Below are positions 15,430 through 44,647 of a stretch of 64,000 nucleotides of DNA, one piece after another. The stretch lies in NCBI RefSeq assembly GCF_009789075.1, contig NZ_WNXQ01000001.1, positions 620,001 to 684,000 on the forward strand, written 5' to 3'. Position 1 is the stretch's first letter. Each line of letters begins with the position of its first letter. The notes under the pieces were generated by a model, which worked only from the letters and a program-made list of their open reading frames with translations, was not told the DNA's origin and ran no database searches. The stretch comes from Pseudooceanicola pacificus. GTDB taxonomy: Bacteria > Pseudomonadota > Alphaproteobacteria > Rhodobacterales > Rhodobacteraceae. The position numbers and the translations under genes were made by a program.

Positions 15430-15768
15430 CTAGCTGCCCGGCATGGCGACCTGCAGGCGGGCCGCCATCTCTTGCAGGAAATATGCGCGTGCGGCGCAAA
15501 ACGACCGGTCGAGCGCGGTAACATCCACCGCATGGGCCTGGCCCCGGGCGGCGTCGGACTCGCCCTGCTGGCAGAGGCCGGCCAGTTCGGCGAAACCCAC
15601 GGTCATCGCGCTGCCCTTGATATCGTGCAGGGCATGTTCGCTGGCGCCCTGTTGCATCATCCGGCCGATGGCCTCCTCGGTGTCGCCCAGGAACATGGTC
15701 AGCACCTCGGGGAACACGTCCGCCCCGATTTCATCGCGCAGCTCTGCGGCGCGGGTCCAGTCGATCAC
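15430..15768 (-). CDS. Hpt (histidine phosphotransfer) domain protein
   Basis: A free-standing phosphotransfer protein of 112 residues. The phospho-acceptor is His48 in HDIKGSAMTVGF, the classic Hpt helix motif. GTG 15768 with AGGAGG just upstream fixes the start; a longer frame to 15930 is not plausible. It is divergent from a receiver-phosphatase gene 160 bases away, so the two may form a phosphorelay pair. Known Hpt proteins pass phosphate between a hybrid kinase and a receiver; the kinase is not identified here. Confidence 0.88.
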   Translation of the reverse strand: MIDWTRAAELRDEIGADVFPEVLTMFLGDTEEAIGRMMQQGASEHALHDIKGSAMTVGFAELAGLCQQGESDAARGQAHAVDVTALDRSFCAARAYFLQEMAARLQVAMPGS

Positions 15769-15929
15769 CTTGGCCTCCTGTCCGGTTCCGCCGGAAGGGT
15801 AAGCGCGAGGGTTTAACAAAAAGCTGACTAGATTTCGGGGGGCGCCACCCGGATTTTCACCGTGGATCAACGACTCGGCCCTATTCAGGTGACAGGCGGT
15901 CACGGGCCGGGCGGCGAAAGGCGGATCCA

Positions 15930-17192
15930 TTGTACAGGGCCAAGGAACCGGTCCGGGCGGATCACGCCCAGGCGGACGCGGGATATCGCGTGCTGGTGGT
16001 CGACGACAACCGGCTGCAGCGGGCGGTTCTGCGCAGCTCGCTCACGCGCTGGGGCTACCGGGTGGAAGAGGCCGGATCGGCGGAAGAGGCGATTGCCCTG
16101 GCCACCCTCACCCCGCCCGACCTGGTGTTGAGCGACTGGATGATGCCCGGGATGAACGGGCTGGAATTCTGCCGCGCCTTTCGCGCGATGGAACGCGAGG
16201 ATTACGGCTATTTCGTCCTGCTGACCTCCAAGGCCGAAAAGACCAACGTGGCCGAAGGGCTGGACAGCGGCGCCGACGATTTTCTGACGAAACCGGTGAA
16301 TTCGGGCGAGCTGCGGGCCCGGCTGAACGCGGGCGAACGCATTCTCGCCATGCAGCGCGAGCTGCGGCACAAGAACCGGCTGATCAGCGACACGTTGAAC
16401 GAATTGCAGACGCTCTACGATTCCATCGACAGCGACCTGGTCGAGGCGAAGAAGCTGCAACAATCCCTCGTGCGCGAAAGGTTCCGCGACTTTGGCAGCG
16501 CCAAGCTGTCGCTGACGCTCAGCCCGGCGGGGCATGTCGGCGGCGACCTCGTGGGCCATTTCCCGGCGGGGGAGGGGGTTGTGGGCCTCTACGCGATCGA
16601 CGTATCGGGCCACGGCATCAGCTCGGCCCTGATGACGGCGCGGCTTGCCGGGTATCTCTCGCCCGCCGCGCCGGAACAGAACCTGGCCCTGCTGCGCCGC
16701 CCCGACGGGGGATTCGCGCCCCGCCCCCCGGCCGAGGTGGCGGCCCATCTCAACCGTCTGGTCCTGGCCGAGGTCGAGACCGAACATTACTTCACCCTCG
16801 TCATCGCGCTGTGCGACCTGCGCACAGGCGCGGTGCGGATGGCGCAATGCGGCCACCCGCACCCGCTGCTGCAGGCGGCGGACGGTCAGGTGCGGCAGGT
16901 CGGCCAGGGCGGCATGCCCGTCGGGCTGATCCGCGATGCCGAATATGACGAGGTTGCGTTTCAGCTGCGCCCGGGCGACCGCCTGCTGCTGGTGTCGGAC
17001 GGCATGGTCGAATGCCCCAACCAGGTCGGCGGTATCATTGGCGAGGAAGGGCTGATCGCCATGCTGGCGGGGTTGGCGGACATCCCCGGCCCGCCCCTGC
17101 TGGAAACCCTGATTTGGAGCCTTGACCAAAGGAACCCGCAGCCGGATTTCCCCGACGACATATCGGCGATCCTGTTCGAATTCTCGGGATAG
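15930..17192 (+). CDS. Response regulator fused to PP2C/SpoIIE-type serine phosphatase
   Basis: A 420-residue two-domain protein. Receiver about 18-135: acidic pair Asp25/Asp26 in VVDDN, phospho-acceptor Asp69 in LSDWMMPGMNG, conserved Lys in LTKPVN. A helical linker (about 140-185) leads to a RsbU-like phosphatase with metal ligands in GGDLVG, AIDVSGHG and DDISA. Such proteins usually control an anti-sigma-factor antagonist in partner-switching or general stress circuits; no such partner lies next to it. TTG start at 15930 with GAAAGG 8 bases upstream; no ATG or GTG lies near the domain edge, so the start is moderately sure. Confidence 0.9.
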   Translation: MYRAKEPVRADHAQADAGYRVLVVDDNRLQRAVLRSSLTRWGYRVEEAGSAEEAIALATLTPPDLVLSDWMMPGMNGLEFCRAFRAMEREDYGYFVLLTSKAEKTNVAEGLDSGADDFLTKPVNSGELRARLNAGERILAMQRELRHKNRLISDTLNELQTLYDSIDSDLVEAKKLQQSLVRERFRDFGSAKLSLTLSPAGHVGGDLVGHFPAGEGVVGLYAIDVSGHGISSALMTARLAGYLSPAAPEQNLALLRRPDGGFAPRPPAEVAAHLNRLVLAEVETEHYFTLVIALCDLRTGAVRMAQCGHPHPLLQAADGQVRQVGQGGMPVGLIRDAEYDEVAFQLRPGDRLLLVSDGMVECPNQVGGIIGEEGLIAMLAGLADIPGPPLLETLIWSLDQRNPQPDFPDDISAILFEFSG

Positions 17193-29814: not shown

Positions 29815-30248
29815 CCGAATCCGCCCATTCCCTTGCGGTCACGCTGTTCAGCGAGATCCTGACCTCGGACCAGCTGGTGCGCAACCGGCTGGGAAAGGTG
29901 CTGCCCAAGGGGATGGAGATTTCGCATTTCTCGGTGCTGAACCATCTGGCCCGGGCGGGGGAACGGTCTCCGGCGCAGCTGGCCAAGGCGTTTCATGTCA
30001 CGCGCGGCGCGATGACCAATACGCTGACCAAGCTGGAATGGGCCGGCCACGTGCACATCCGCCCCGACTGGGACGACGCGCGGCGCAAGATGGTGGCGAT
30101 TTCTCCCGCCGGGCGCCTGGCGCGCGATACCGCGCTGAACGGGATCATGCCCATGGTGCGTGACCTCGTGGCCGAGATGGGCGAGGAGAAGGTCCGCGCC
30201 GCCCTGCCAATCCTGCGCGAGCTGCGGACCAAGCTGGAAGAGGACTAG
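29811..30248 (+). CDS. MarR-family transcriptional regulator
   Basis: A 145-residue winged-helix regulator. The recognition-helix region is SPAQLAKAFHVTRGAMTNTLTKLE (about 58-81), followed by the wing RPDWDDARRKMVAIS. Start ATG 29811 overlaps the stop of the nitrilase gene, so it is probably co-expressed and may control this small redox operon. Its TAG stop shares the CTAG palindrome with the stop of the facing algJ-like gene. Confidence 0.9.
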   Translation: MTESAHSLAVTLFSEILTSDQLVRNRLGKVLPKGMEISHFSVLNHLARAGERSPAQLAKAFHVTRGAMTNTLTKLEWAGHVHIRPDWDDARRKMVAISPAGRLARDTALNGIMPMVRDLVAEMGEEKVRAALPILRELRTKLEED

Positions 30249-31357
30249 CCGCCCGGCACCCGTGGCGCGGGGCCCAGAAAGGGCGCGATGGAGCGGCGTT
30301 CCACCACCGTCAGCAGCACCAGGTCGGGCTGCCAGTCACGGGTGAGGTCGCGCAGCATCTGGCCGTCGCTGGCAAAGGCCGTGTCATAGTGGACATGGAT
30401 CACGTCGGTGAATGTCCCGGCCATGTATTTCGAGACGGCAGTGCCGAAACTGTCGCGGATCCACAGCACCTTGAGCCGGTTGGCGGCGTTCGGGCTGGTT
30501 ACCATCAGGGGCCGCATCTGGTTCGGGATTTCGGGGTTGCCGCCGCGTCCGACCTCCTGCGCGGTTTCGACCAGCGTGCGCACCGTCTCGATCGGCACGG
30601 GCGAGTCGAAGGCATAATCAATGTCCCGGTCCTTCATCACGGCAGTCAGGCGCAGGAACTCTGACAGGTCACCGGCCGCGCGCCGGACGACCAGGGGATC
30701 GCGGATGCCGGGCAGCGTCAGCCGCTGGCCCCGCAGGTCGACCGTGCCCAGCCAGTCCCGCGCGGCGATCGCCCCGGCGAAGGTGTTCCAGTGGGTATCG
30801 GTGCGAAAATAGAGCTCGGCCCCCGGCACGACATCCTGGCGGGTCAGCGCCGCGCGCGGATCGGTGATCAGGGATCCGGCCCCGGGAACGGCCATGATCC
30901 GGTCGAGCGGGGTGCCCGGTCGCGGGTCCACCCAGACCGGCATGTGATCGGGGTACTGCGTGCTCTTGTTCGGGCCGATCAGCACGCGAAAGTCGGCGAC
31001 CCCCTGTGCCAGCAGCCAGGCCCGCCAGCCGACCAGCTTGTCGACGGTGGCTGCGGCGAGCTGATCGTCGACGTCGTACCCGCCGATACGGCGGCGGTGC
31101 AGCGATTCGTCATAGTGATTGCCCAGGTACAGCCATCCGTCATGGCCGATCACGACCTGACCGGGATCGACGCTGATGCCCAGCGGGCTGACCACAGCGC
31201 TCAACATCGCAAGCGGCAGATCGAGGTTGAAAAAATCGTGCTCGGCCATGGCCCGGCCGGCGTCCTCGTTGCCGTTCAGCCATCTTACCAGGTTGGCCGC
31301 GGGCAGGGCCGCGATTCCGATCAGCGCCGTCACAAGGAACAGACCCACCTGTCGCAT
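30245..31357 (-). CDS. AlgJ/AlgX-like SGNH-family O-acetylation protein
   Basis: A 370-residue protein with one N-terminal hydrophobic segment (signal or anchor, 4-24) and a periplasmic catalytic domain. The motif TDTHWN (186-191, Asp187, His189) and Ser303 in WIRDSFG match the catalytic triad of AlgJ/AlgX acetyl-transfer proteins. It partners the MBOAT gene 12 bases upstream: the MBOAT passes acetyl groups across the membrane and this protein places them on a glycan. Which polymer is modified is unknown; no polysaccharide genes are nearby. Confidence 0.82.
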   Translation of the reverse strand: MRQVGLFLVTALIGIAALPAANLVRWLNGNEDAGRAMAEHDFFNLDLPLAMLSAVVSPLGISVDPGQVVIGHDGWLYLGNHYDESLHRRRIGGYDVDDQLAAATVDKLVGWRAWLLAQGVADFRVLIGPNKSTQYPDHMPVWVDPRPGTPLDRIMAVPGAGSLITDPRAALTRQDVVPGAELYFRTDTHWNTFAGAIAARDWLGTVDLRGQRLTLPGIRDPLVVRRAAGDLSEFLRLTAVMKDRDIDYAFDSPVPIETVRTLVETAQEVGRGGNPEIPNQMRPLMVTSPNAANRLKVLWIRDSFGTAVSKYMAGTFTDVIHVHYDTAFASDGQMLRDLTRDWQPDLVLLTVVERRSIAPFLGPAPRVPGG

Positions 31358-31369
31358 CGCCCCGCCCCG

Positions 31370-32845
31370 TCAGAAGTTGAAGTAGAGGAACACGGTGCTG
31401 GTCGATCCCAGCATCACGTAGATCCCGATGGCAAAGAGCAGCCCCGCGCCCAGGGTCATCGCGTTGCTCGGATGATCGGTCACGAACTGGTAGGGGTTGC
31501 GGCAGGCGATCAGCGCAAAGCCCAGCAGAAGCGCCGCATAGACCGGCGCCTGCACCGCCAGCGCGGGCGGCGACACGGCCAGCAGCCAGTCCATCCCCTT
31601 GCCCGCCCAGGCCAGGCTCTCTGTCGGCAGGCTGTCGAGCGTGGTCCGCCGGATCGAGCCGATGTCGACCATGCCCCAGAGCACCCGCTTGGCCGAGGCC
31701 ATGTCGGTCGCGCGGAAGAAGACCCAGGCGAGGTTCACGAAGAGGAAGGTCACCAGCCAGGCCAGCGGGCGCGGCATCCGCAGGCCCGCGCCGCGCCAGA
31801 CCCGGTGCGCCGCCAGCGCCACGCCATGCATCAGCCCCCAGATGACGAACATCCAGCTGGCCCCGTGCCACAGCCCGCCCAGGGTAAAGGTCACGATCAG
31901 GTTGCTTAGCACCCGCGCCTCGCCCGCCCGGTTGCCGCCGAGGGGGATGTAGACGTAATCGCGCAGGAACCGGCCAAGGGTGATGTGCCAGCGTCGCCAG
32001 AAATCCTGTATGTCCAGTGACTTGTAGGGCGACAGGAAATTCAGCGGCAGGCGGATGTTGAACAGCATCGCCGCGCCATAGGCCATGTCGCAATATCCGC
32101 TGAAATCGAAATAGAGCTGGAATGTGTAGGACAGGCTTGCCGCCCAGGCGCCAAAGAAATCCAGCGGCCCGGTCCCGTCGAACCCGGCATCGGCCCAGGT
32201 GGCAAAGGTGTCGGCGATGGCGACTTTCTTGAACAGGCCGATGGCAAAGATGATCAGCCCGACGGTGATATTGCCCGGGATCATCCGGTGGTTCCGGCTG
32301 TCGCCGAACTGGCGCATCATTTCCGAGTGGTGGACGATCGGCCCCGCGATCAGCTGCGGAAAGAACGAGACGAACAGCGCATAGTTCATCAGGTCGTATT
32401 CCAGCGTCTGGCCGCGATAGCTGTCGACCAGATAGGCGATCTGCTGGAAGGTGAAGAAGCTGATGGCCAGCGGCAGCAGGATGTTCAGCGCGACATGGCT
32501 GCCCCCGGTTGCGGTGGCGTAGTTCTCCATCAGGAAGTCGGCATATTTGAAATAGCCGAGCGCGCCGAGGTTGGCGGCAATGCCGAAGGTCAACACCACC
32601 CGGGCCGCCCGAATGGAGCCCTTGCGATGCATCCGCCCCAATTCGCTGCCCAGCGAATAGTTGAACAGCACCGAAATCATCAGAAGCAGCAGGTAGGCCG
32701 AGTTCCACCAGGCGTAGAAGACAAGGTTGGCAATGACGAGGCACCCGCGTCCCGCAACATCAAGGCCGGCGTGGACAAGCGCGAAGTAGACGGCAAAGGC
32801 CGCGGGCAAGAAGACAAAAATGAATTCTGGCGAACTGAAGAGCAT
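31370..32845 (-). CDS. AlgI-like MBOAT O-acyltransferase
   Basis: A 491-residue integral membrane protein with about ten hydrophobic segments. The MBOAT signature is complete: FWRRWHITLGRFLRDYV (282-298) and the catalytic His327 in LWHGASW. The family moves acetyl groups to the periplasm for modification of exopolysaccharides such as alginate. Start ATG 32845 is the first residue of the initial membrane segment. Operon with the AlgJ-like gene. Confidence 0.93.
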   Translation of the reverse strand: MLFSSPEFIFVFLPAAFAVYFALVHAGLDVAGRGCLVIANLVFYAWWNSAYLLLLMISVLFNYSLGSELGRMHRKGSIRAARVVLTFGIAANLGALGYFKYADFLMENYATATGGSHVALNILLPLAISFFTFQQIAYLVDSYRGQTLEYDLMNYALFVSFFPQLIAGPIVHHSEMMRQFGDSRNHRMIPGNITVGLIIFAIGLFKKVAIADTFATWADAGFDGTGPLDFFGAWAASLSYTFQLYFDFSGYCDMAYGAAMLFNIRLPLNFLSPYKSLDIQDFWRRWHITLGRFLRDYVYIPLGGNRAGEARVLSNLIVTFTLGGLWHGASWMFVIWGLMHGVALAAHRVWRGAGLRMPRPLAWLVTFLFVNLAWVFFRATDMASAKRVLWGMVDIGSIRRTTLDSLPTESLAWAGKGMDWLLAVSPPALAVQAPVYAALLLGFALIACRNPYQFVTDHPSNAMTLGAGLLFAIGIYVMLGSTSTVFLYFNF

Positions 32846-32972: not shown

Positions 32973-33893
32973 TCAATCCGGCAGCAACACCAGCTTGCCC
33001 CTGACATGTCCGGCCTCGCTTGCCACATGGGCGCGGGCGGCATCGGCCAGCGGCATGGTCTCGATCACCGGCGGTTTGAACACGCCCAATTCGGCCAGGG
33101 CGGCGACACGGGCCATCAGGGCGCGGCTGCGGTTCACCGCCGGGCGCAGGGCGGTGACGTCGGTGCGGGTCGGTTCCGGGGCGGCGGTGCCGCTGGCGAT
33201 GAAAGCCGCGCGCCCGCCGGGGCGCAGCGCGGCAAAGCTGCCGGGCACCGTCGCCGCGCCCACCGTGTCAAAGGCCGCGTCGCAATCGCCCAAGGCGGCG
33301 CCGATATCCTGCGTGGTGTAATCCAGCACCTCATGCGCGCCCAGCCCCAGCAGGTAGTCGCGGTTGACCGCGCGGCCGGTGGTCACGACATGCGCCCCCA
33401 TGTACCGGGCCAGCTGCACCGCCATGCCGCCAACGCCCCCGGCACCGCCCTGCACCAGGATCTTTTCCCCGGCCTGCAGGTGCAGCGTATCCTGCAGCGA
33501 GATCATCGCGGTCAGCCCGGCCAGCGCGATGGCGGCCGATTCGACATGGCTGAACCCGGCGGGCATCGGCGCGACCAGATCGGCGGGCAGGACGATGCGG
33601 CTGGCATATCCGCCCTCGGTCTCGCGCGGGCAGACGCCAAAGACATCGGTGCCCACGGCCAGATCCGCCCCCTCGCCCACGGCGACAACGGTGCCCGCGA
33701 AATCGCGCCCCGGCACATGCGGCAGGGTGACCGAGGCGGTGCTGCTGCCGCGCCGGACCTTCCAGTCGGCGGCATTCACGCTGGCGGCGCGGATCTGCAC
33801 GGCGACCTCGCCCGGGCCGGGGGGCAGGTCGGGCAGGTCGACCAGGGTCAGGACCTCGGGTCCGCCATGCTGCGCGATCTGGATGGCTTTCAT
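32973..33893 (-). CDS. Zinc-independent MDR oxidoreductase (quinone oxidoreductase-like)
   Basis: A 306-residue medium-chain dehydrogenase/reductase without the structural zinc cysteines. It shows GRDFAGTVVAVGEGA at the substrate domain and QGGAGGVGGMAVQLA as the NADPH-binding loop. Most such enzymes reduce quinones or enals with NADPH. It is the last gene behind the kinase on the same strand (21 bases apart), so it may be expressed with the sensor system, but no functional tie is known. Confidence 0.88.
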   Translation of the reverse strand: MKAIQIAQHGGPEVLTLVDLPDLPPGPGEVAVQIRAASVNAADWKVRRGSSTASVTLPHVPGRDFAGTVVAVGEGADLAVGTDVFGVCPRETEGGYASRIVLPADLVAPMPAGFSHVESAAIALAGLTAMISLQDTLHLQAGEKILVQGGAGGVGGMAVQLARYMGAHVVTTGRAVNRDYLLGLGAHEVLDYTTQDIGAALGDCDAAFDTVGAATVPGSFAALRPGGRAAFIASGTAAPEPTRTDVTALRPAVNRSRALMARVAALAELGVFKPPVIETMPLADAARAHVASEAGHVRGKLVLLPD

Positions 33894-33914
33894 ATCGGGG
33901 CTTTCCGCATTGGG

Positions 33915-36128
33915 TCAGGTGGTGCTGCGTTCGAGAAGGGCGACCAGGTTGATCGCCAGATGCCCCGGTTCGATCGGTTTCGAGATCAGCGGCAGGTCCT
34001 TGCGGGCACAGATCTCCTGCAGCTCCTTGCCGCGGTCGGCGCTGACGATGCAGGCCGGCACTGGGCCAAAGGTATGGCGCAGGGCGGTGACGGCATCGGT
34101 GCCGCGTTCCCCGTCGTCCAGCTGATAGTCGGCGACGATCACGTCGGGCACCAGCCCCACCTCGGACAGCAGGGCGCTGGCCTCGGCCCCGGTGGCGACG
34201 GCAAAGACATCGACGCCCCATTTTTCCAGCAGGATGGTCATGGCCTGGCGGAAGTCGGCGTCATTCTCGATCAGCAGGGCCAGCCGGCCCGCCAGCCGGT
34301 CCTGCGCCAGATCCGAGGGCACGGCGCGGCCGCCTTCGTCCAGCTTCTGCACCTTGGCCAACGGCAGGTCGACCAGAAAGCCCGAGCCGCGCCCGACCTC
34401 GGACACCAGGGTCAGGCGATGGCCCAGCAGGGCACAGGCGCGGTCGACGATGGCAAGACCCAGGCCCATCCCTTCGGACGGGCTGGCGATGGATTCCAGG
34501 CGCTGGAATTCGTTGAAGATCACGTCGCGCTTGTCGTCGGGGATGCCCGGGCCGGTGTCCCAGACCTCGACCCGGATGGTGTCGCCACGCCGCCGCGCGC
34601 CGACCAGAACCTTGCCCCGGGCCGTGTAGCGCACCGCGTTCGAGATCAGGTTCTGCAGCACACGGCGCAGATAGGTGCTGTCGCTGGAGGCCACGGCGGT
34701 GCTGGGCACGACACGCAGCTCCAGCCCCTTGCGGCGGGCGACGGGGCCCAGCTCTTCCTCCAGCCGCGCGAACATGCTGCCCAGCTGGGTGGGCCCGACA
34801 TGCACCGCGGCCAGGCCCGAATCCAGCTTCGAGATGTCCAGCAGCGCGTCCAGGATCGACTCGACACTTTGCAGGGCGCGGCCGGTCTTGGACAGGATTT
34901 CCTGGGTGACGGGATCGCCGTCATCGGTGGGGATGGACGAAAGGTACAGCTTGGCCGCGGAGAGCGGTTGCAGCAGGTCGTGGCTGGCGGCCGCGACAAA
35001 CCGGGATTTCGACGCATTCGCCCGTTCGGCCGCGCCAAGGGCGGCCTGCAGCTCCAGCGTGCGGGCCGCGACACGGGCCTCAAGGGATTCGTTTGCCTCG
35101 CGGATCGCGGCCACGGCGGCACGTTCCGCCGACACGTCGGTAAAGCTGATGACGAATCCGCCATCCGGCATCTCCTGCGCGTGCACATGCAGCACCTCGA
35201 CCCCGCGCCGCAGTTCGAAGGTCATGGGGTCCCGGCCCGCGCGCCGCGCGATCCAGTCGCGCGCGCCGCGGGCCGAGATGCCCTGAAAGGTGAAATGCCC
35301 CTCGATCCAGTCGAGCAGGCCGTTCGCCTCGGCATTCAGGTAGACCCGGCGGATCGGCACGTGCAGCAGATCGCCCATGCGCTGGTTCCAGCCCGCCAGG
35401 TGGCCATGCGCGTCAAAGATGCAGACGCCCTGATCCAGGTGATCCAGCGTGGCGCGGATCAGGCGGGCCTGGTCGTCCAGCAGGCGCTCGCGCTCCTGCC
35501 GCTCGATCCGCATGATGTCGGTCACGTCGGTCTGCAGGATGACGGTGCCGCCATCGGCGGTGCGGTGTTCGCTGACCTGCACCCAGCGGTTCCAGATCAT
35601 GCGCACGTTGAAGATCACGTGATCGTCGCGGTGCCGTTCCATCCGCCGGATGCGCCACTGGCGCGGGGTCTCGCCCTCGGGCAGGGCCAGGTGCAGGCTT
35701 TCGCTGATCAGATGGACATACCTCTGAAAGGTCAGCCCGGGCTGCAGGCTGTCGCGGATGTCGGGCATATGCATCCCGAAACGCGAATTGCACAGGACCA
35801 GCCGCTCGCTGCTGTCGAACAGCGCGAATCCCTCCTGCACCGTCTCGATCGCATTGGCCAGGTTGGTCCGCGCGGCCTCGGCCTCTTGCGTGGCGTTGGC
35901 CAGCATGGCGTTCGAGGTGTTCAGCAGCTCCATCGCCTGTTCAAGGTCGCGGGTCCGGGCGCGGACCTCTTCCTCCAGCAGGGCGGCGCGCTGGAACTGG
36001 GCATAGGCCGCCCCGGTGCTTTCGCCGCCTTCCTCGACCCGCCGCATCAGAGAGGCGGCGATCGTCATCAGCTTCTCGGTCTGGCGCTCGGGCGAGTCCT
36101 CGGGATTGATCAGCGAGATGGTCGACAT
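33915..36128 (-). CDS. PAS-containing hybrid histidine kinase (NahK/ErcS-type)
   Basis: A 737-residue cytoplasmic kinase without membrane segments. Order: coiled coil (about 45-95), PAS (about 95-205), second PAS (about 225-335), short coiled coil (340-375), HisKA with phospho-His383 (ASHDLLQPLS), ATPase with N box (491-500), DTGPGIP (524-530) and GMGLGLAIV (553-561), then a receiver with Asp667 (VADYQL). The layout resembles NahK/ErcS kinases. It overlaps the FIST gene by one base (TGATG) and so is translationally coupled to it. The signal is presumably delivered by the FIST protein. Confidence 0.92.
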   Translation of the reverse strand: MSTISLINPEDSPERQTEKLMTIAASLMRRVEEGGESTGAAYAQFQRAALLEEEVRARTRDLEQAMELLNTSNAMLANATQEAEAARTNLANAIETVQEGFALFDSSERLVLCNSRFGMHMPDIRDSLQPGLTFQRYVHLISESLHLALPEGETPRQWRIRRMERHRDDHVIFNVRMIWNRWVQVSEHRTADGGTVILQTDVTDIMRIERQERERLLDDQARLIRATLDHLDQGVCIFDAHGHLAGWNQRMGDLLHVPIRRVYLNAEANGLLDWIEGHFTFQGISARGARDWIARRAGRDPMTFELRRGVEVLHVHAQEMPDGGFVISFTDVSAERAAVAAIREANESLEARVAARTLELQAALGAAERANASKSRFVAAASHDLLQPLSAAKLYLSSIPTDDGDPVTQEILSKTGRALQSVESILDALLDISKLDSGLAAVHVGPTQLGSMFARLEEELGPVARRKGLELRVVPSTAVASSDSTYLRRVLQNLISNAVRYTARGKVLVGARRRGDTIRVEVWDTGPGIPDDKRDVIFNEFQRLESIASPSEGMGLGLAIVDRACALLGHRLTLVSEVGRGSGFLVDLPLAKVQKLDEGGRAVPSDLAQDRLAGRLALLIENDADFRQAMTILLEKWGVDVFAVATGAEASALLSEVGLVPDVIVADYQLDDGERGTDAVTALRHTFGPVPACIVSADRGKELQEICARKDLPLISKPIEPGHLAINLVALLERSTT

Positions 36129-37276
36129 CAGTCCTCGGGCGGGTAGATCGCAACCCCGGTCAGGGTCTGGTTCACATGCATCGAGCCCATTTGCTCGCCA
36201 TAGGTCGAGAACCCGACAACCCGGTGACGGGCCAGCACCTCGGACAGCTTGCCCTTGATCTGTTTCTGCTCGGCCTCCAGCTTGCGCAGCAGGCAGTCGC
36301 AGGCGAGGATCGTGTCAGGCACGCGGTCCGCCGACAGGGCGGCCAGTTCGGTTTCCAGGTGGTCGACCATGTCCTGCGCCTCGGCCAGCGACAGCACCAG
36401 ACCCTCGCCCACGGCGGAAAAGAAGGTCAGGTCGCCGTTCTCATGCGCCTGCTGGATCGAGCGGACATGATGCTGCGCCCCGATCCGCACGACAACCGGA
36501 TGAGCGGCAAAGGTGAAGGTCGTCAGCTGTTCCGGATCCTTGCCCAGCAGCCGGGCGTATTCGCGCCCCGCCGGTTCGTCGTTGATTCGGTGCACGACAC
36601 GTGTGTCGGGGCTGGCACAGGTCACGACCATGCGGTGTTCGGTGGGCACAAGGTGATCGGTCTTGAACACCTTGACCGGGCAGCGGGTGCGCACCACCAG
36701 CAGAACGGCGGCGCTGTCATGGGTTTCGCCCTCGTGGAACACCTTGGCGCATTGGAACCGCTCGCCATCCCCGGCAGAACCGCCGAACAGCGGCACCGGG
36801 CCCAGCATCGCCGCCAGTTCCGATGCGACCTGGTCCTCGGACCGTGACATGCCGTCGATCATGAGGAAGGCGAATTCGTGATCCCAGTCCGGCACTTCGC
36901 GCATCAGCTCGCCACGGGCCAGCAGGATGCGCTGCGTCAGATCGGGGGCGGGAGATTTGTGGATCTCGCGCAGCAGGAAGGCGCGGCTGCGGAAGGCGTT
37001 GCGCGGCAGGCCGATGGCCAGCAGCTCGCCTTCGGCATAGCCGTGGCCGTCAAGCTCTCCGGCGGTGGTGCAGCCGATCACCCGGGCGGGGGCGAAGCGC
37101 GACTGCGCCTCGGCCAGCAGGGCGGGCAGACCGGGATCGGGCGAAGCGAAGAGGATGACCGCGTCCAGCTCGTCGCCCAGACCTTCGGCCAACAGTTCGA
37201 TCGCCCTCTCCGTCCCCAGAGAGACGGATGAACTGCGCACGATGCCCGGCGCGGCGGGCGTATTCATGAAGGTCAC
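36128..37276 (-). CDS. FIST-domain sensor protein (NosP-like)
   Basis: A 382-residue protein with FIST_N (about 35-215, containing VIGCTTAGEL and LFGGSAGDGERF) and FIST_C (about 220-360, with HPVVVRIG and VGFSTYGEQMG). In Pseudomonas, a FIST protein encoded beside NahK, called NosP, binds haem and nitric oxide and controls the kinase. The same gene pairing here supports a NosP-like role; haem binding is not visible from motifs alone. GTG 37276 has GGAGG 7 bases upstream; an in-frame ATG at 37267 is the alternative. Confidence 0.88.
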   Translation of the reverse strand: MTFMNTPAAPGIVRSSSVSLGTERAIELLAEGLGDELDAVILFASPDPGLPALLAEAQSRFAPARVIGCTTAGELDGHGYAEGELLAIGLPRNAFRSRAFLLREIHKSPAPDLTQRILLARGELMREVPDWDHEFAFLMIDGMSRSEDQVASELAAMLGPVPLFGGSAGDGERFQCAKVFHEGETHDSAAVLLVVRTRCPVKVFKTDHLVPTEHRMVVTCASPDTRVVHRINDEPAGREYARLLGKDPEQLTTFTFAAHPVVVRIGAQHHVRSIQQAHENGDLTFFSAVGEGLVLSLAEAQDMVDHLETELAALSADRVPDTILACDCLLRKLEAEQKQIKGKLSEVLARHRVVGFSTYGEQMGSMHVNQTLTGVAIYPPED

Positions 37277-37314
37277 TGACGGTCCTCCCTCCGTCGATGG
37301 CCCAGCGTGGCAGG

Positions 37315-38004
37315 TCAGGCGCCGTCTTGCAATACGCTTGAAAAACTGGTTTCGCGCGCGAGCAGGGCGGCCTGAGTCCGGCTTTGCACCCCAAGCTTGC
37401 GCATGATGGCGGTGACATGCGCCTTGACCGTGGTTTCGGCAATCGAGAGGTCGTAGGCGATCTGCTTGTTCAGCTTGCCGGCGCAGATCAGGTCGAGAAT
37501 GCGGGCCTGCTGCTGGGTCAGAGTGCCGAGGCGCTGCATCGCCTCGTCCAGCGGCATGTCGGCGCTTTCGTCGGGCAGGTAGCCCTCGGGGGCAAAGCTG
37601 CGCCCGGCGCGGATCGCGTCGAAAGCGGCGCCAAAGACCTCGCGCTGGCTGTGTTTGGGCACGAACCCGTCCGCCCCGGCCCTGAGCGCGGATCCGATCA
37701 CCCGGCTGTCGGTCATCGAGGACACCACCACCACCGGAACCGAGGCCGCGCGGCGCAGGCGGATCAGCCCGTCGAGCCCCTTCACATCCGGCAGGTTCAG
37801 ATCCAGCACCACAACGTCGGGCGCTGCGCCATTGGCGATGACCTGCATCGCGCCCTCAAGGGAGTCGGCGGTCAGCACCTCACGCACGCCGGCCACATGG
37901 CGCAGGGTCATCGCAAGCGCGTCGCAGAACAGGGGATGATCGTCCACGATCAGCGCCCGGTCCAAAGCCAATGAAGTTCCCTCGGCGTCGTGCATGTGGG
38001 TCAC
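37315..38004 (-). CDS. LuxR-type response regulator
   Basis: A 229-residue two-domain regulator. Receiver: Asp21/Asp22, phospho-Asp68 (VVLDLNLPD), Lys in FVPKHS. C-terminal LuxR helix-turn-helix: LTQQQARILDLICAGKLNKQ and TTVKAHVTAIMRKLGV. Probable output of the kinase two genes downstream. Start GTG 38004 is preferred for its AGGAGG 5 bases away; ATG 37995 is 14 bases away. First gene of the leftward operon; its promoter region faces coxS, so it may also act there. Confidence 0.92.
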   Translation of the reverse strand: MTHMHDAEGTSLALDRALIVDDHPLFCDALAMTLRHVAGVREVLTADSLEGAMQVIANGAAPDVVVLDLNLPDVKGLDGLIRLRRAASVPVVVVSSMTDSRVIGSALRAGADGFVPKHSQREVFGAAFDAIRAGRSFAPEGYLPDESADMPLDEAMQRLGTLTQQQARILDLICAGKLNKQIAYDLSIAETTVKAHVTAIMRKLGVQSRTQAALLARETSFSSVLQDGA

Positions 38005-38051
38005 CTGTTCCTCCTCTGGTTGGATAGTGTACCAGCGACAGCTTGCCCGGA

Positions 38052-38081
38052 AATATAAGCCGTTGGTCGCATATGGGCCAA
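38052..38081 (-). promoter_or_regulatory. Promoter of the regulator-FIST-kinase operon
   Basis: On the minus strand TTGGCC (38081-38076) and TATATT (38057-38052) lie 18 bases apart, 48 bases before the regulator's start codon. Confidence 0.5.
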
Positions 38082-38205
38082 GCCCGTGGTGCGCAAGGTC
38101 CTGCGGCCTACGCCCTTGGTCTTATAGCGTGGGCGGGCGCGGCGAGCGTAGCCTTTCGCCAAAGCGGGATCCGTCCCGCGCAGGTTTCGGAAGGGGAGGA
38201 TTTCC

Positions 38206-38688
<483 letters not shown>

Positions 38689-38707
38689 CGCCACTCACGT
38701 AATCGAA

Positions 38708-38724
38708 GGTGCGCCCGGCGCACC
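38708..38724 (+). repeat. Intercistronic hairpin coxS-coxL
   Basis: Perfect 7-base stem GGTGCGC/GCGCACC with CCG loop, just upstream of the coxL ribosome site. It could affect mRNA processing or stability; no T run, so it is not a terminator. Confidence 0.5.
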
Positions 38725-38745
38725 GCCCCGAAGGGAGGGAAAGAC

Positions 38746-41118
<2,373 letters not shown>

Positions 41119-41125
41119 CGGTGCA

Positions 41126-41149
41126 CCCGTCCGGGCCAACCCGGACGGG
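41126..41149 (+). repeat. Intercistronic hairpin coxL-coxM
   Basis: Perfect 10-base stem CCCGTCCGGG/CCCGGACGGG with CCAA loop and no T run. A likely mRNA stabiliser or processing site between the two cistrons. Confidence 0.6.
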
Positions 41150-41170
41150 ACCCCACCAGGGAGATAGAGA

Positions 41171-41959
41171 ATGTACAACTTCGAATTCGTGAAACCCTCG
41201 TCGGTGGAAGAGGCCGTTGCGGCCCTGAAAACCGAAGACGCCAAGCCGCTGTCGGGCGGCCAGACCCTGCTGCCGACGATGAAGCAGCGGCTTGCCTCGC
41301 CGTCGAAACTGGTCAGCCTGCTGGGCATCGACTCGCTGAAGGGCGTCAGCGTCTCGGATGGCGTGATGACCATCGGCGGCGCGACCAACCATGCCACCGT
41401 GGCGAAAGAGGCGGCCTCGGCCTTTCCCGGCCTCGCCTATCTGGCCGGCAAGATCGGCGACCCGGCTGTGCGCAACCGCGGCACCATCGGCGGGTCGATC
41501 GCCAATAACGACCCGGCGGCCTGCTACCCCTCGGCCGCCATCGCCTGCGGTGCAACCATCGTGACCGACCGCAACGAATATGCGGCCAGCGACTTCTTCC
41601 AGGGCCTGTTCACCACCGCGCTGGAAGAGGACGAGATCGTGACGGCGGTCAAGTTCCCGATCCCCGAGGCCTCGAACTACCAGAAGTTCGAACAGCCGGC
41701 CTCGCGCTTCCCGCTGACCGGCGTCTTTGTCGCGAAATACGCCGGCCGCGTGGGCGTGGGCGTCACCGGCGCCTCCGAAGACGGCGTCTTTGCCTGGGCC
41801 GAGGCCGAGGCGGCGCTGGCGGGCAACTTCTCGCCCGACGCGATCTCGGGGCTGACGGTCGATGCAGACGGCATGATCTCCGACCTGCATGGCACCGGCG
41901 CCTATCGCGCGCATCTGGTCAAGGTGCTGACCGGGCGCGGGGTCAAGGCCGCAAGCTGA
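41171..41959 (+). CDS. coxM: CoxM, FAD-binding medium subunit
   Basis: 262 residues binding FAD. The two flavin motifs are SGGQTLLP (28-35, where AGGQSL is typical) and TIGGS (105-109). It completes the heterotrimer and passes electrons to an acceptor. The operon ends here with a strong terminator: no coxD, E, F or G maturation genes follow within this window, unlike form I clusters. Confidence 0.94.
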   Translation: MYNFEFVKPSSVEEAVAALKTEDAKPLSGGQTLLPTMKQRLASPSKLVSLLGIDSLKGVSVSDGVMTIGGATNHATVAKEAASAFPGLAYLAGKIGDPAVRNRGTIGGSIANNDPAACYPSAAIACGATIVTDRNEYAASDFFQGLFTTALEEDEIVTAVKFPIPEASNYQKFEQPASRFPLTGVFVAKYAGRVGVGVTGASEDGVFAWAEAEAALAGNFSPDAISGLTVDADGMISDLHGTGAYRAHLVKVLTGRGVKAAS

Positions 41960-42044: not shown

Positions 42045-43253
42045 TCAGTCGTCCAGCCAGTCGCGGGCGAATTCCACCCGCTCCAGCCCGGCGAAGCGCG
42101 CCATGCGGATCAGTTCGGATTCCAGCCGCGCGAACCGGCCCTTGGACATGCGGGTATGCTCCTCCATCCAGACGCGCGTGACCTTCAGCACGGTGCGGTC
42201 CTGATCGGCCTTCATGTCGATGCGTCCGATCAGCTTGTCGCCCTCCAGCATCGGAAAGACGTAATAGCCGTACATCCGGCGCGATTCCGGCACGAAGATC
42301 TCGATCCGGTAATGATAGCCGAACAGCATTTCCGTTCGGTTACGGTCGCGGATCAGCGGATCGAACGGGCTGAGGATGCGCAGGCGCGAGGGCGGCGGTT
42401 CCAGCTCTTCGGCCTCGTCGAAGATGTCGGGCAGGGCGTAGAACACGCGGCTGCCCCCCGCGGCGGACTCCACGCGCATCTCGATCACCTCGCCCTCGTC
42501 CATCCGCTTCTGGCACCACGTCTTGGCCTCGGCTGGGCTGACATGACCCCAGAACGACGCGATCTGGCCCGAGGTCGCAAAGCCCAGCCGCAGCAGCGCC
42601 TCTTCGCAGAGCCAGTCGATGCTGCTTGCCGTGCCGGGATGGGGCAGCGCCGCGGCCTGGGGAAAGACATTTTCGGTCAGGTCATAGACCTTCTGGAACC
42701 CGATGCGGCGGCAGACCGACAGCTCTCCGGTCCGCCACAGGTATTCCAGCGCCGTCTTGGACGGGTGCCAGTTCCACCAGCCGCCGCTCTGCCCGCGATG
42801 CGCATCGGCCATCATCTCGCTGGACCGGACGGGGCCGTTTTCCGCAATATGCTCGCGCACCCGCTGCAATTCGCTGACGTAGTCGGTGCCCTGCCACTTG
42901 TCCCATTTTTCGACCAGGTTTGCCTTGTCGCGGGAAAACCGCAGCTGCCACCAGGGAAAGAATTCCGTCGGGATGACCGAGGCGTCATGCGTCCAGTGTT
43001 CGAACAGCAGCCGGTCGCGTTCCAGCAGCGGTGTCAGGTTCGCCGGGCGATAACTGGGGCGGCGCGCGAAAAGGATCATGTGGTGGGCGCGTTCCACCGT
43101 GTTCACGCTGTCCACCTGGACAAAGCCCAGCCCCCGGATCACCGACATCAGGTCCGATCCGCGTCCCGATCCCTGCGGCTGTGTGCCCAGCAGGTGCCGG
43201 TGCATGAAGACCTTGCGCGCGGCAGTGTTCGACAGGACGGGCCGTTTGGGCAT
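42045..43253 (-). CDS. YcaQ/AlkX-type winged-helix DNA glycosylase
   Basis: A 402-residue protein of the HTH_42 superfamily. The catalytic QVD motif (46-48, in GFVQVDSVN) that marks YcaQ interstrand-crosslink glycosylases is intact, and ILFARR and FFPWWQLRF match the family. It removes bulky or crosslinked N7-alkylguanine bases. It starts 1 base after a LacI-family regulator gene, an unusual partner that may control it. Confidence 0.9.
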   Translation of the reverse strand: MPKRPVLSNTAARKVFMHRHLLGTQPQGSGRGSDLMSVIRGLGFVQVDSVNTVERAHHMILFARRPSYRPANLTPLLERDRLLFEHWTHDASVIPTEFFPWWQLRFSRDKANLVEKWDKWQGTDYVSELQRVREHIAENGPVRSSEMMADAHRGQSGGWWNWHPSKTALEYLWRTGELSVCRRIGFQKVYDLTENVFPQAAALPHPGTASSIDWLCEEALLRLGFATSGQIASFWGHVSPAEAKTWCQKRMDEGEVIEMRVESAAGGSRVFYALPDIFDEAEELEPPPSRLRILSPFDPLIRDRNRTEMLFGYHYRIEIFVPESRRMYGYYVFPMLEGDKLIGRIDMKADQDRTVLKVTRVWMEEHTRMSKGRFARLESELIRMARFAGLERVEFARDWLDD

Positions 43254-43254
43254 C

Positions 43255-44277
43255 TCAGGGTTGTTTCAATGTGTCGCCGAATGCAATTGTCGGCGTCAGT
43301 TCGACCTTGGGGCCGTCCTTGGTGTCGCCGGTGAGCCGATCGGCCACGATCTGCGCGGCGCGGCGGCCGATCTCCTCGCGGCAGCTGTCTATGGTGGCCA
43401 GCTTGCGCGGCAGACCCTGCAGCAGACGCACGCCGTTGAACCCGGCCATGCCAACCTTGTCGGGAATGTCATAGCCCTGCTCGATCATCCACAGCAGGCC
43501 GCCCGCGCCGATCAGGTCGTTGGAATAATACAGGAAATCCAGGTCGGGGCTGCGGGCCATCATGGCCATCGTCATCTCGCGCCCCTTGGCCAGGGCCGAG
43601 CCGCCGGAATAGAATTCCTGGTCGGCGACTTCGACCCCGCCCTTGGCGAGCGCCTCGGTAAAGCCCTCGAACCGCTTGCGGGCGCGGTGGTCCAGGCCCA
43701 GGCCCGTGCCCAGGAATCCGATCCTGCGGTGGCCCGCGGCCAGGATCGCGCGCCCCATCTCGCGCCCGGCGCGGCGGTGAGAGATGCCCACCATCGTGTC
43801 GATCGGGGTGCCGTCGGTGTCCATGATCTCGACCACAGGGATACCGGCTGTGCGCAGCATCGCGCGCGAGGCGTCGGAATGCTCAAGCCCGGCGATGATG
43901 ACGCCCGAGGGACGCCAGGACAGCATCTCGAAGAGGACCTTTTCCTCTTTCTCGGGCAGGTAATCGGTCAGTCCCACGACCGGCTGCAGCTCGGTCTGTT
44001 CCAGCACCCGGTTGATGCCGGTCATGACCTCGGGGAACACCAGGTTCGACATCGAGGGGATGATCACGGCCACGAGGTTGACGCGCTGACTGGCGAGGGC
44101 GCCGGCGATCTTGTTGGGCACGTAACCCAGCGTCTTGGCGGCGCGCAGGACCTTTTCGCGGGTGGCGGCAGAGACGTCGCCGCGGTTGCGCAGGACGCGG
44201 CTGACCGTCATTTCAGACACACCTGAGGCTTCGGATACGTCGCGCAGCGTCAGGGGGCGGGTGTCTTTTGGTGTCAC
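43255..44277 (-). CDS. LacI-family transcriptional regulator
   Basis: 340 residues: N-terminal helix-turn-helix TLRDVSEASGVSEMTVSRVL with hinge KIAGALASQ, then a periplasmic-binding-protein fold for a sugar-like effector. Length and layout are close to gluconate-type GntR regulators. GTG 44277 gives the normal length; the longer frame to 44394 adds unrelated residues. Its effector and target are unknown; the downstream ycaQ is only 1 base away. Confidence 0.92.
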   Translation of the reverse strand: MTPKDTRPLTLRDVSEASGVSEMTVSRVLRNRGDVSAATREKVLRAAKTLGYVPNKIAGALASQRVNLVAVIIPSMSNLVFPEVMTGINRVLEQTELQPVVGLTDYLPEKEEKVLFEMLSWRPSGVIIAGLEHSDASRAMLRTAGIPVVEIMDTDGTPIDTMVGISHRRAGREMGRAILAAGHRRIGFLGTGLGLDHRARKRFEGFTEALAKGGVEVADQEFYSGGSALAKGREMTMAMMARSPDLDFLYYSNDLIGAGGLLWMIEQGYDIPDKVGMAGFNGVRLLQGLPRKLATIDSCREEIGRRAAQIVADRLTGDTKDGPKVELTPTIAFGDTLKQP

Positions 44278-44647
44278 TTGGAGTTCCCGGGCCAGTGGAC
44301 CTTTAGTTATTCGCAAGCATGCGCTGCGATCAAGGAGATTGAAACACCCGGTTCCTGCGCATTGCGCCGGCAGCCCGATTTCGCTGTGCCGCAAGTCCGC
44401 GGACAGCGGCGCGGAGCCCGGGATAACGCCCGTCTGCGCAGCACCTCATGCCCGGAGCGCCGCACGGCAATTGGCACGGCTTGGCCCAGTCGAAGTGGCG
44501 CATCACGGGCCCTGCCGGAAACTCAGGGCAAACCTATGACGACTTGCGATAGCGGGGCCGCTGGCACCCGGAATGCCAGCGGCCCGCCACGTCTGGGCCT
44601 GGTGCGGCCCGGGTGCCGGCCCGAAGCCCAGGTGGATCGGCTGGGTG
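44278..44647. other. 370-base non-coding region with a strong hairpin
   Basis: The region lies between the LacI regulator gene and the 3' end of the chemoreceptor gene. No convincing gene, and no match to tmRNA, SRP RNA or RNase P RNA cores. At 44555-44585 there is a perfect 12-base stem GGGCCGCTGGCA/TGCCAGCGGCCC with a 7-base loop and no T run on either side. It may end or protect the chemoreceptor mRNA, or belong to a small RNA. Confidence 0.5.

Follow-up and report, generated by a model that had tools for sequence, protein, structure and literature searches.

A FIST protein with an adjoining hybrid histidine kinase is known mainly from work on nitric oxide (NO) and biofilms, under the names NosP and NahK. 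In Pseudomonas, according to one review, a nosP-nahK pair (PP_2663-pedS1) is included in the ped cluster, and the genes for ErcS' and ErdR are linked with ethanol oxidation (PMC12997753); for ErdR, also named CrbR, another paper describes an ethanol-related role (PMC9927353). As for form II Cox enzymes, recent papers call their activity unresolved or their role unclear, and leave them out of carbon monoxide (CO) surveys (PMC13203968, PMC13240472). Here we analyse a 64,000-nt stretch of Pseudooceanicola pacificus (the window), in which genes for a LuxR-type response regulator, a FIST protein and a hybrid kinase stand divergently from form II coxSLM. We found no account of a linkage between form II cox and such a module in the open-licence literature, and the accessible parts of papers on lanthanides make no mention of linked FIST, cox and pyrroloquinoline quinone (PQQ) genes. 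The sequences support well an alcohol-oxidation regulon that would be controlled by the three regulatory proteins and very probably includes form II cox; the whole account, in which form II Cox would take the aldehyde step of that regulon, we consider reasonably likely.

A regulator, FIST and kinase gene set opposite form II cox

The regulator gene (37315-38004, minus strand; Pfam Response_reg and GerE) encodes a LuxR/NarL-type protein, the predicted binder of the two operators described below; its start codon may lie further in, as the gene finder places it at 37965. On the same strand follow the NosP-like FIST gene (36128-37276; FIST and FIST_C) and the gene for a NahK/ErcS-like hybrid histidine kinase (33915-36128; two PAS_7 domains, HisKA, HATPase_c and Response_reg), which overlap by the single base 36128. 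Across a spacer of 201 bases, the cox genes run the other way on the plus strand, with coxS (38206-38688; 2Fe-2S subunit, Fer2/Fer2_2), coxL (38746-41118; molybdenum subunit, Ald_Xan_dh_C and MoCoBD_1/2) and coxM (41171-41959; FAD subunit, FAD_binding_5), and without coxG. These coordinates and strands, the shared base and the divergent coxSLM had been given in a preliminary description of the locus, and they match the list of open reading frames (ORFs) and the Pfam results. Its form II label also stands, as both the S-L-M order and the motif AYRGAGR, lacking the active-site cysteine, are found. The window shares these two traits with described form II CoxSLM (BMS type), but differs in the linkage to a FIST-kinase-LuxR module and to a predicted operator.

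The closest NCBIfam models are NosP for the FIST protein, NahK and ErcS' for the kinase and ErdR for the regulator, all under the curated cut-offs: 368 bits against NosP (NF041558, cut-off 450), 423 against NahK (NF041831, cut-off 1500), 370 against the ErcS' model near_NosP_CTERM (NF041832, cut-off 400) and 158 against ErdR (NF041830, cut-off 390). The names ErcS' and ErdR gave a first lead to alcohol oxidation, because these Pseudomonas genes are tied to ethanol oxidation. A PDB search with a profile of the FIST alignment returned no match at E 0.01. The set resembles NosP-NahK signalling in its FIST protein and adjoining PAS hybrid kinase, which have their best matches there, whereas its sub-threshold scores, the DNA-binding regulator encoded next door and a predicted output in metabolism rather than biofilm set it apart. 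Similarly, ErdR/CrbR, a Pseudomonas acetate and ethanol regulator, is the best match of the regulator, but scores far above 158 bits are required of a member and the neighbourhood is different; the consulted passages of the ErdR paper show no motif letters with which a binding site could be compared.

The order of the set is nearly constant. The regulator lies upstream of the FIST gene in 56 of 57 fetched loci and in 76 of 80 named loci (the best 80 of 592 FIST matches), and the kinase lies downstream in 56 of 57 and 79 of 80, respectively, a grouping that exceeds chance. A FIST gene next to a hybrid kinase gene, the NosP-type trait, is present in the window and in nearly all loci. The preliminary description had placed a fourth gene in the same operon, that of a medium-chain dehydrogenase/reductase (MDR)-family, quinone oxidoreductase-like protein (32973-33893, minus strand; ADH_N, ADH_zinc_N and ADH_zinc_N_2). 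The near-constant order bears out the first three members but not the reductase gene, which at 40% identity adjoins that of the kinase in just one of the 57 fetched FIST loci, the one in the window, and in none of the 80 named ones; this rarity rules it out as a member of the conserved system, and it is probably a local passenger. An ORF with an Hpt domain, a candidate relay partner, lies at 15430-15930 on the minus strand (34.4 bits, cut-off 24.6), at a distance of 18 kb from the kinase; the P. pacificus genome has two Hpt matches, of which this is one.

Linkage to cox, a shared operator-like site and the PQQ block

We surveyed 248 Rhodobacteraceae genomes from 247 genera, at E values of at most 1e-20 for FIST and 1e-180 for coxL. 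FIST is present in 97 of them, a count that takes in a second clade at 35-42% identity, and coxL relatives in 202; the second clade occurs either alone or alongside the first. At least 34 of the 97 FIST genomes have coxL within 40 kb of FIST, a lower bound given that 150 coxL matches were listed and 52 used for distances, the other 98 being on other contigs, in FIST-less genomes or, in one case, more than 1 Mb from FIST. Of these linked cases, 28 are divergent like the window, 5 have coxL on the same strand beyond the kinase and 1 is arranged otherwise. The divergent gaps, among the matches listed, comprise 13 of 1.5-2.3 kb, 13 of 11-16 kb and 2 in between. For the 80 named loci, the fetched flank holds coxL in 32 and a PQQ-dependent alcohol dehydrogenase (PQQADH) in 21, 5 of them with exaC, and none of the three in 27. 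Two Pseudooceanicola loci (L147 and L202) have the regulator opposite coxS without coxG, like the window, and the regulator-cox arrangement is found in many genera. In Cereibacter johrii (L209) and Cereibacter ovatus (L216), regulator, FIST, kinase and coxGSLM genes form a single run. Rare adjacency in relatives, which the preliminary description had named as grounds for giving up its coupling of the regulator set to cox, is not what we see, because the arrangement recurs across genera and the spacer holds an operator-like site; with the site shared between loci, the proposed coupling is probable.

The site was learned by expectation maximisation only on 17 spacers between regulator and cox, as a motif of 16 bases scoring 228, against 150-158 in five dinucleotide shuffles. 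Read toward cox it is CCnWnGGTCGnATA, with an imperfect dyad CGACC-WW-GGTCG, and 16 of the 17 spacers reach at least 10 bits in a leave-one-out analysis. The window contains two predicted operators on the plus strand, 53 bases apart: CCGTTGGTCGCATATG at 38060-38075 (motif score 20.2) and, closer to coxS, CCCTTGGTCTTATAGC at 38113-38128 (20.9). A strict pattern has five matches in the whole P. pacificus genome, of which these are two, while a control pattern has four. Of the hits, training loci and duplicates included, 26 of 33 in fetched loci and 31 of 35 in named ones have the site centre 50-85 bases ahead of the cox start.

Presence of the site follows presence of the regulator. Within intergenic regions of 30-600 bases, the site precedes the first cox gene in 16 of 19 fetched loci and in 30 of 34 non-duplicate named ones, all carrying the regulator and held out from training; this adds up to 46 of 53, compared with 1 of 18 for FIST-less genomes (p 5e-10). 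From this held-out count the 12 of 80 named loci identical to fetched ones were removed, but not close relatives of training loci, and locus L051, with a gap of 23 bases, stands outside it. In a scan by region class (60-450 bases), in which a region passes when its best motif score is at least 9 bits, cox regions pass in 16 of 26 cases with the regulator in the locus, internal coxG-coxS gaps included, and in 3 of 20 without it; two of those 20, L073 and L111, come from FIST-bearing genomes, and leaving them aside gives the 1 of 18. The motif is also frequent between pedF and SBP6 (27 of 27 regions), at PQQADH (23 of 31) and in c550/NMT1 regions (11 of 17), and infrequent in the background of other promoter-side (20 of 318), convergent (1 of 83) and block-internal regions (8 of 132). 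Several of the 20 passing promoter-side regions are pqqB, exaC or Fer4_5 promoters.

The longer gaps between regulator and cox are occupied by a PQQ alcohol-oxidation block. In all 13 mapped loci with a gap of 11-16 kb, the gap contains PQQADH, propeller, SBP6, pedF and SBP3 genes, and in most cases it also holds genes for PedB/PedC-type transporters, a cytochrome c or a Sel1-repeat protein. In linked loci pedF, SBP3, coxG, coxS and coxL are co-directional, as is coxM where it lies within the stretch; in locus L050, the genes from pedF through coxL are separated by 1 to 75 bases. The dehydrogenase of locus L045 reaches 768 bits against TIGR03075 (cut-off 480), and the PedC, PQQ-ABC ATPase, propeller (TIGR03866), binding protein (TIGR03863) and PedF models are also over cut-off there. 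PQQADH (E at most 1e-180) occurs in 49 genomes of the family, and every one of these 49 carries FIST, compared with 97 of all 248 genomes (p 6e-25). The stretch WD[YF]DG is present in 33 of 34 dehydrogenases; we take its second aspartate to be a mark of lanthanide-type enzymes. P. pacificus has its own PQQADH gene (G000:C1:47886-49595) in a ped block (L072, G000:C1:36000-55999), and the same predicted operator stands before the window cox and before this unlinked block, with scores of 19.5 between pedF and SBP6, 18.5 between Fer4_5 and u20 and 11.9 at PQQADH. Genes for an NMT1-like binding protein, an ABC ATPase and a permease also lie within this block and in several relatives, near motif sites, and may serve metal or alcohol uptake.

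Beyond the family, a survey of 337 genomes of the class (FIST at E at most 1e-40) found FIST in 17, of which 13 are outside Rhodobacteraceae. Among the 14 loci of these 13 genomes, 10 have exaC, PQQADH, pqq or ped transporter genes in the stretch, two have a weaker hint only (a propeller, a 115-aa partner) and two have none; coxL lies near FIST in 0 of the 14. The preliminary description had tied the set to a molybdenum hydroxylase. The link to cox probably holds, but the set is not peculiar to that enzyme, because it accompanies the PQQ block in relatives and alcohol or aldehyde genes in other alphaproteobacterial families. In this it is like the Pseudomonas ped/exa cluster (PQQ alcohol dehydrogenases, PedF, ped ABC transporter and pedI/exaC), where FIST and hybrid kinase genes also lie beside PQQ alcohol oxidation and whose PedC, PQQ-ABC, PedF and propeller models are those exceeded in the Rhodobacteraceae block. 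Unlike in that cluster, a LuxR regulator gene lies directly upstream of FIST, a predicted operator is shared, coxGSLM stands where ExaC sits elsewhere, and in the window genome regulator and cox are separated from the ped block.

Regulon, substrate and signal

Gene set, linkage, co-occurrence and common site are features of the genomes, and they argue strongly for the following regulon. The FIST protein would modulate the hybrid kinase, which would hand phosphate to the LuxR-type regulator, either directly or via an Hpt protein. The regulator is predicted to bind CCnWnGGTCGnATA sites and would activate PQQ-dependent alcohol oxidation, a set of alcohol dehydrogenase, cytochrome and ped transporter genes that is joined by pqq and exaC in some genomes; we infer both that this regulator is the site-binding protein and that it activates. 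In Rhodobacteraceae the regulon would extend to form II coxGSLM, or coxSLM in the window. Form II Cox would most likely oxidise the aldehyde produced by the alcohol dehydrogenase, a step to which we give an even chance. This assignment draws on locus L104, where exaC and a gene for a 115-aa partner follow pedF-SBP3 in place of coxGSLM; the L104 exaC is 74% identical to a gene in L061 that scores 900.1 bits against an ExaC cut-off of 900. ExaC (E at most 1e-200) is present in 13 of the 49 PQQADH genomes, namely in 5 of the 8 that lack a cox of at least 69% identity and in 8 of the 41 that possess one (p 0.02). CoxL itself contributes through its AYRGAGR motif and through glyceraldehyde dehydrogenase alpha as its best, though sub-threshold, NCBIfam model.

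Several observations weigh against this account. The mutual replacement of ExaC and cox is only loose, a trend and not proof. Close coxL orthologues lie beside coxD/E-, XdhC/CoxI- and MobA-like genes in FIST-less genomes, site-free in 17 of 18, and the form II enzyme would therefore also work outside the regulon. In a coxL tree of 54 rows, regulator context shows 14 label changes, at least 7 of them forced, and the tree gives no support for a single origin of the regulator-cox linkage. The ped block of P. pacificus lies 610 kb from the window cox, in a fetched stretch without cox. With respect to the motif, leave-one-out fails for L039, the site escapes detection in 7 of the 53 held-out cox promoters and in 8 of 31 PQQADH regions, and where a regulator does not face cox, the region before it passes in only 14 of 35 cases. 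CoxL is below every NCBIfam cut-off tried, including that of its best model, glyceraldehyde dehydrogenase alpha (NF041018, 691 of 790 bits), and by sequence its PDB neighbours are a CO dehydrogenase (8uem, 613 bits) ahead of a 4zoh chain (388 bits), so the substrate cannot be taken from sequence.

The genes before cox in FIST-less genomes were also considered as a transporter, which Pfam rules out, as they are accessories of AAA, CoxE-like VWA, XdhC/CoxI and MobA-like type. In L033, L070 and other loci the regulator set stands between such accessory genes (coxD/E-, XdhC- and MobA-like) and coxGSLM, and looks as though it had been inserted into a cox operon or had divided one.

The alternative that retains most weight, though we consider it unlikely, is that form II Cox, while part of the regulon, has another substrate, such as an N-heterocycle or a separately imported aromatic aldehyde. 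The family is broad, with quinoline oxidoreductase and 6-hydroxypseudooxynicotine dehydrogenase among the PDB matches, and coxL orthologues exist in other contexts without the site; the co-direction with pedF-SBP3 in linked loci and the presence of ExaC in the same slot in L104 speak instead for the aldehyde of the alcohol dehydrogenase. Somewhat less likely still is that the module is a true sensor of NO, or of free haem, in which NO on the FIST protein would alter the kinase and tune alcohol and cox oxidation to the respiratory state, a reading that concerns the signal and not the regulon. Besides the closeness of the NosP and NahK models, it can draw on Burkholderia, where a NosP reportedly controls its kinase in an NO-dependent manner (PMC12570481), and on the Pseudomonas review, which does not decide whether the ped-linked pair senses NO (PMC12997753). 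Against this, both FIST protein and kinase fall under the curated cut-offs, the site-bearing promoters that can be named belong to alcohol, PQQ, aldehyde and cox genes, and the P. pacificus genome shows no nirK-type match over cut-off, which is weak evidence at 67% completeness and with other NO genes not searched.

It is improbable that the motif belongs to another regulator and that the operon adjacency is hitchhiking: while the link between this regulator protein and the site is predicted only, the site tracks the regulator through held-out loci and FIST-less genomes, and the linkage is seen in several arrangements. CO oxidation as the main role is ruled out by the lack of the cysteine-bearing form I motif (A/S)YxCS(F/L)R, found in 0 of 54 CoxL rows, all 54 of which have AYRGAGR; CoxL also reaches only 653 bits against the form I model TIGR02416 (cut-off 991), and no form I cox over cut-off was found in the P. 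pacificus genome, again weak evidence given its incompleteness. A working CO dehydrogenase serving as a side energy source alongside alcohol oxidation is most improbable on the same missing motif, although the PDB chain closest in sequence is the large chain of a CO dehydrogenase.

Elsewhere in the window, genes for an AlkZ-like DNA glycosylase and a LacI-type regulator (42045-44394, minus strand) follow coxM on the opposite strand, and an AlkZ-like gene also follows coxM in locus L073 of the same genus. At 30245-32845 (minus strand), two adjoining ORFs resemble, by eye only, a sugar O-acetylation pair (MBOAT-like and AlgJ-like).

Returning to an alcohol-oxidation regulon with form II Cox as its aldehyde step, we tentatively propose, at slightly less than even confidence, that the form II 'CO dehydrogenase' of Rhodobacteraceae is an aldehyde oxidase of a PQQ-dependent, probably lanthanide-type, regulon, in the place of ExaC, and that the FIST-kinase-LuxR set is the switch of the whole regulon rather than primarily an NO or biofilm sensor. 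The predicted operator that ties cox to PQQ alcohol oxidation offers a testable substrate class and growth condition. If the proposal is true, the FIST-kinase pair would acquire an output in metabolism, along with a regulator that binds DNA and a predicted site. Form II Cox, which has long lacked a function, would gain a concrete substrate class, in a family where relatives of its coxL are as widespread as 202 of 248 genomes.

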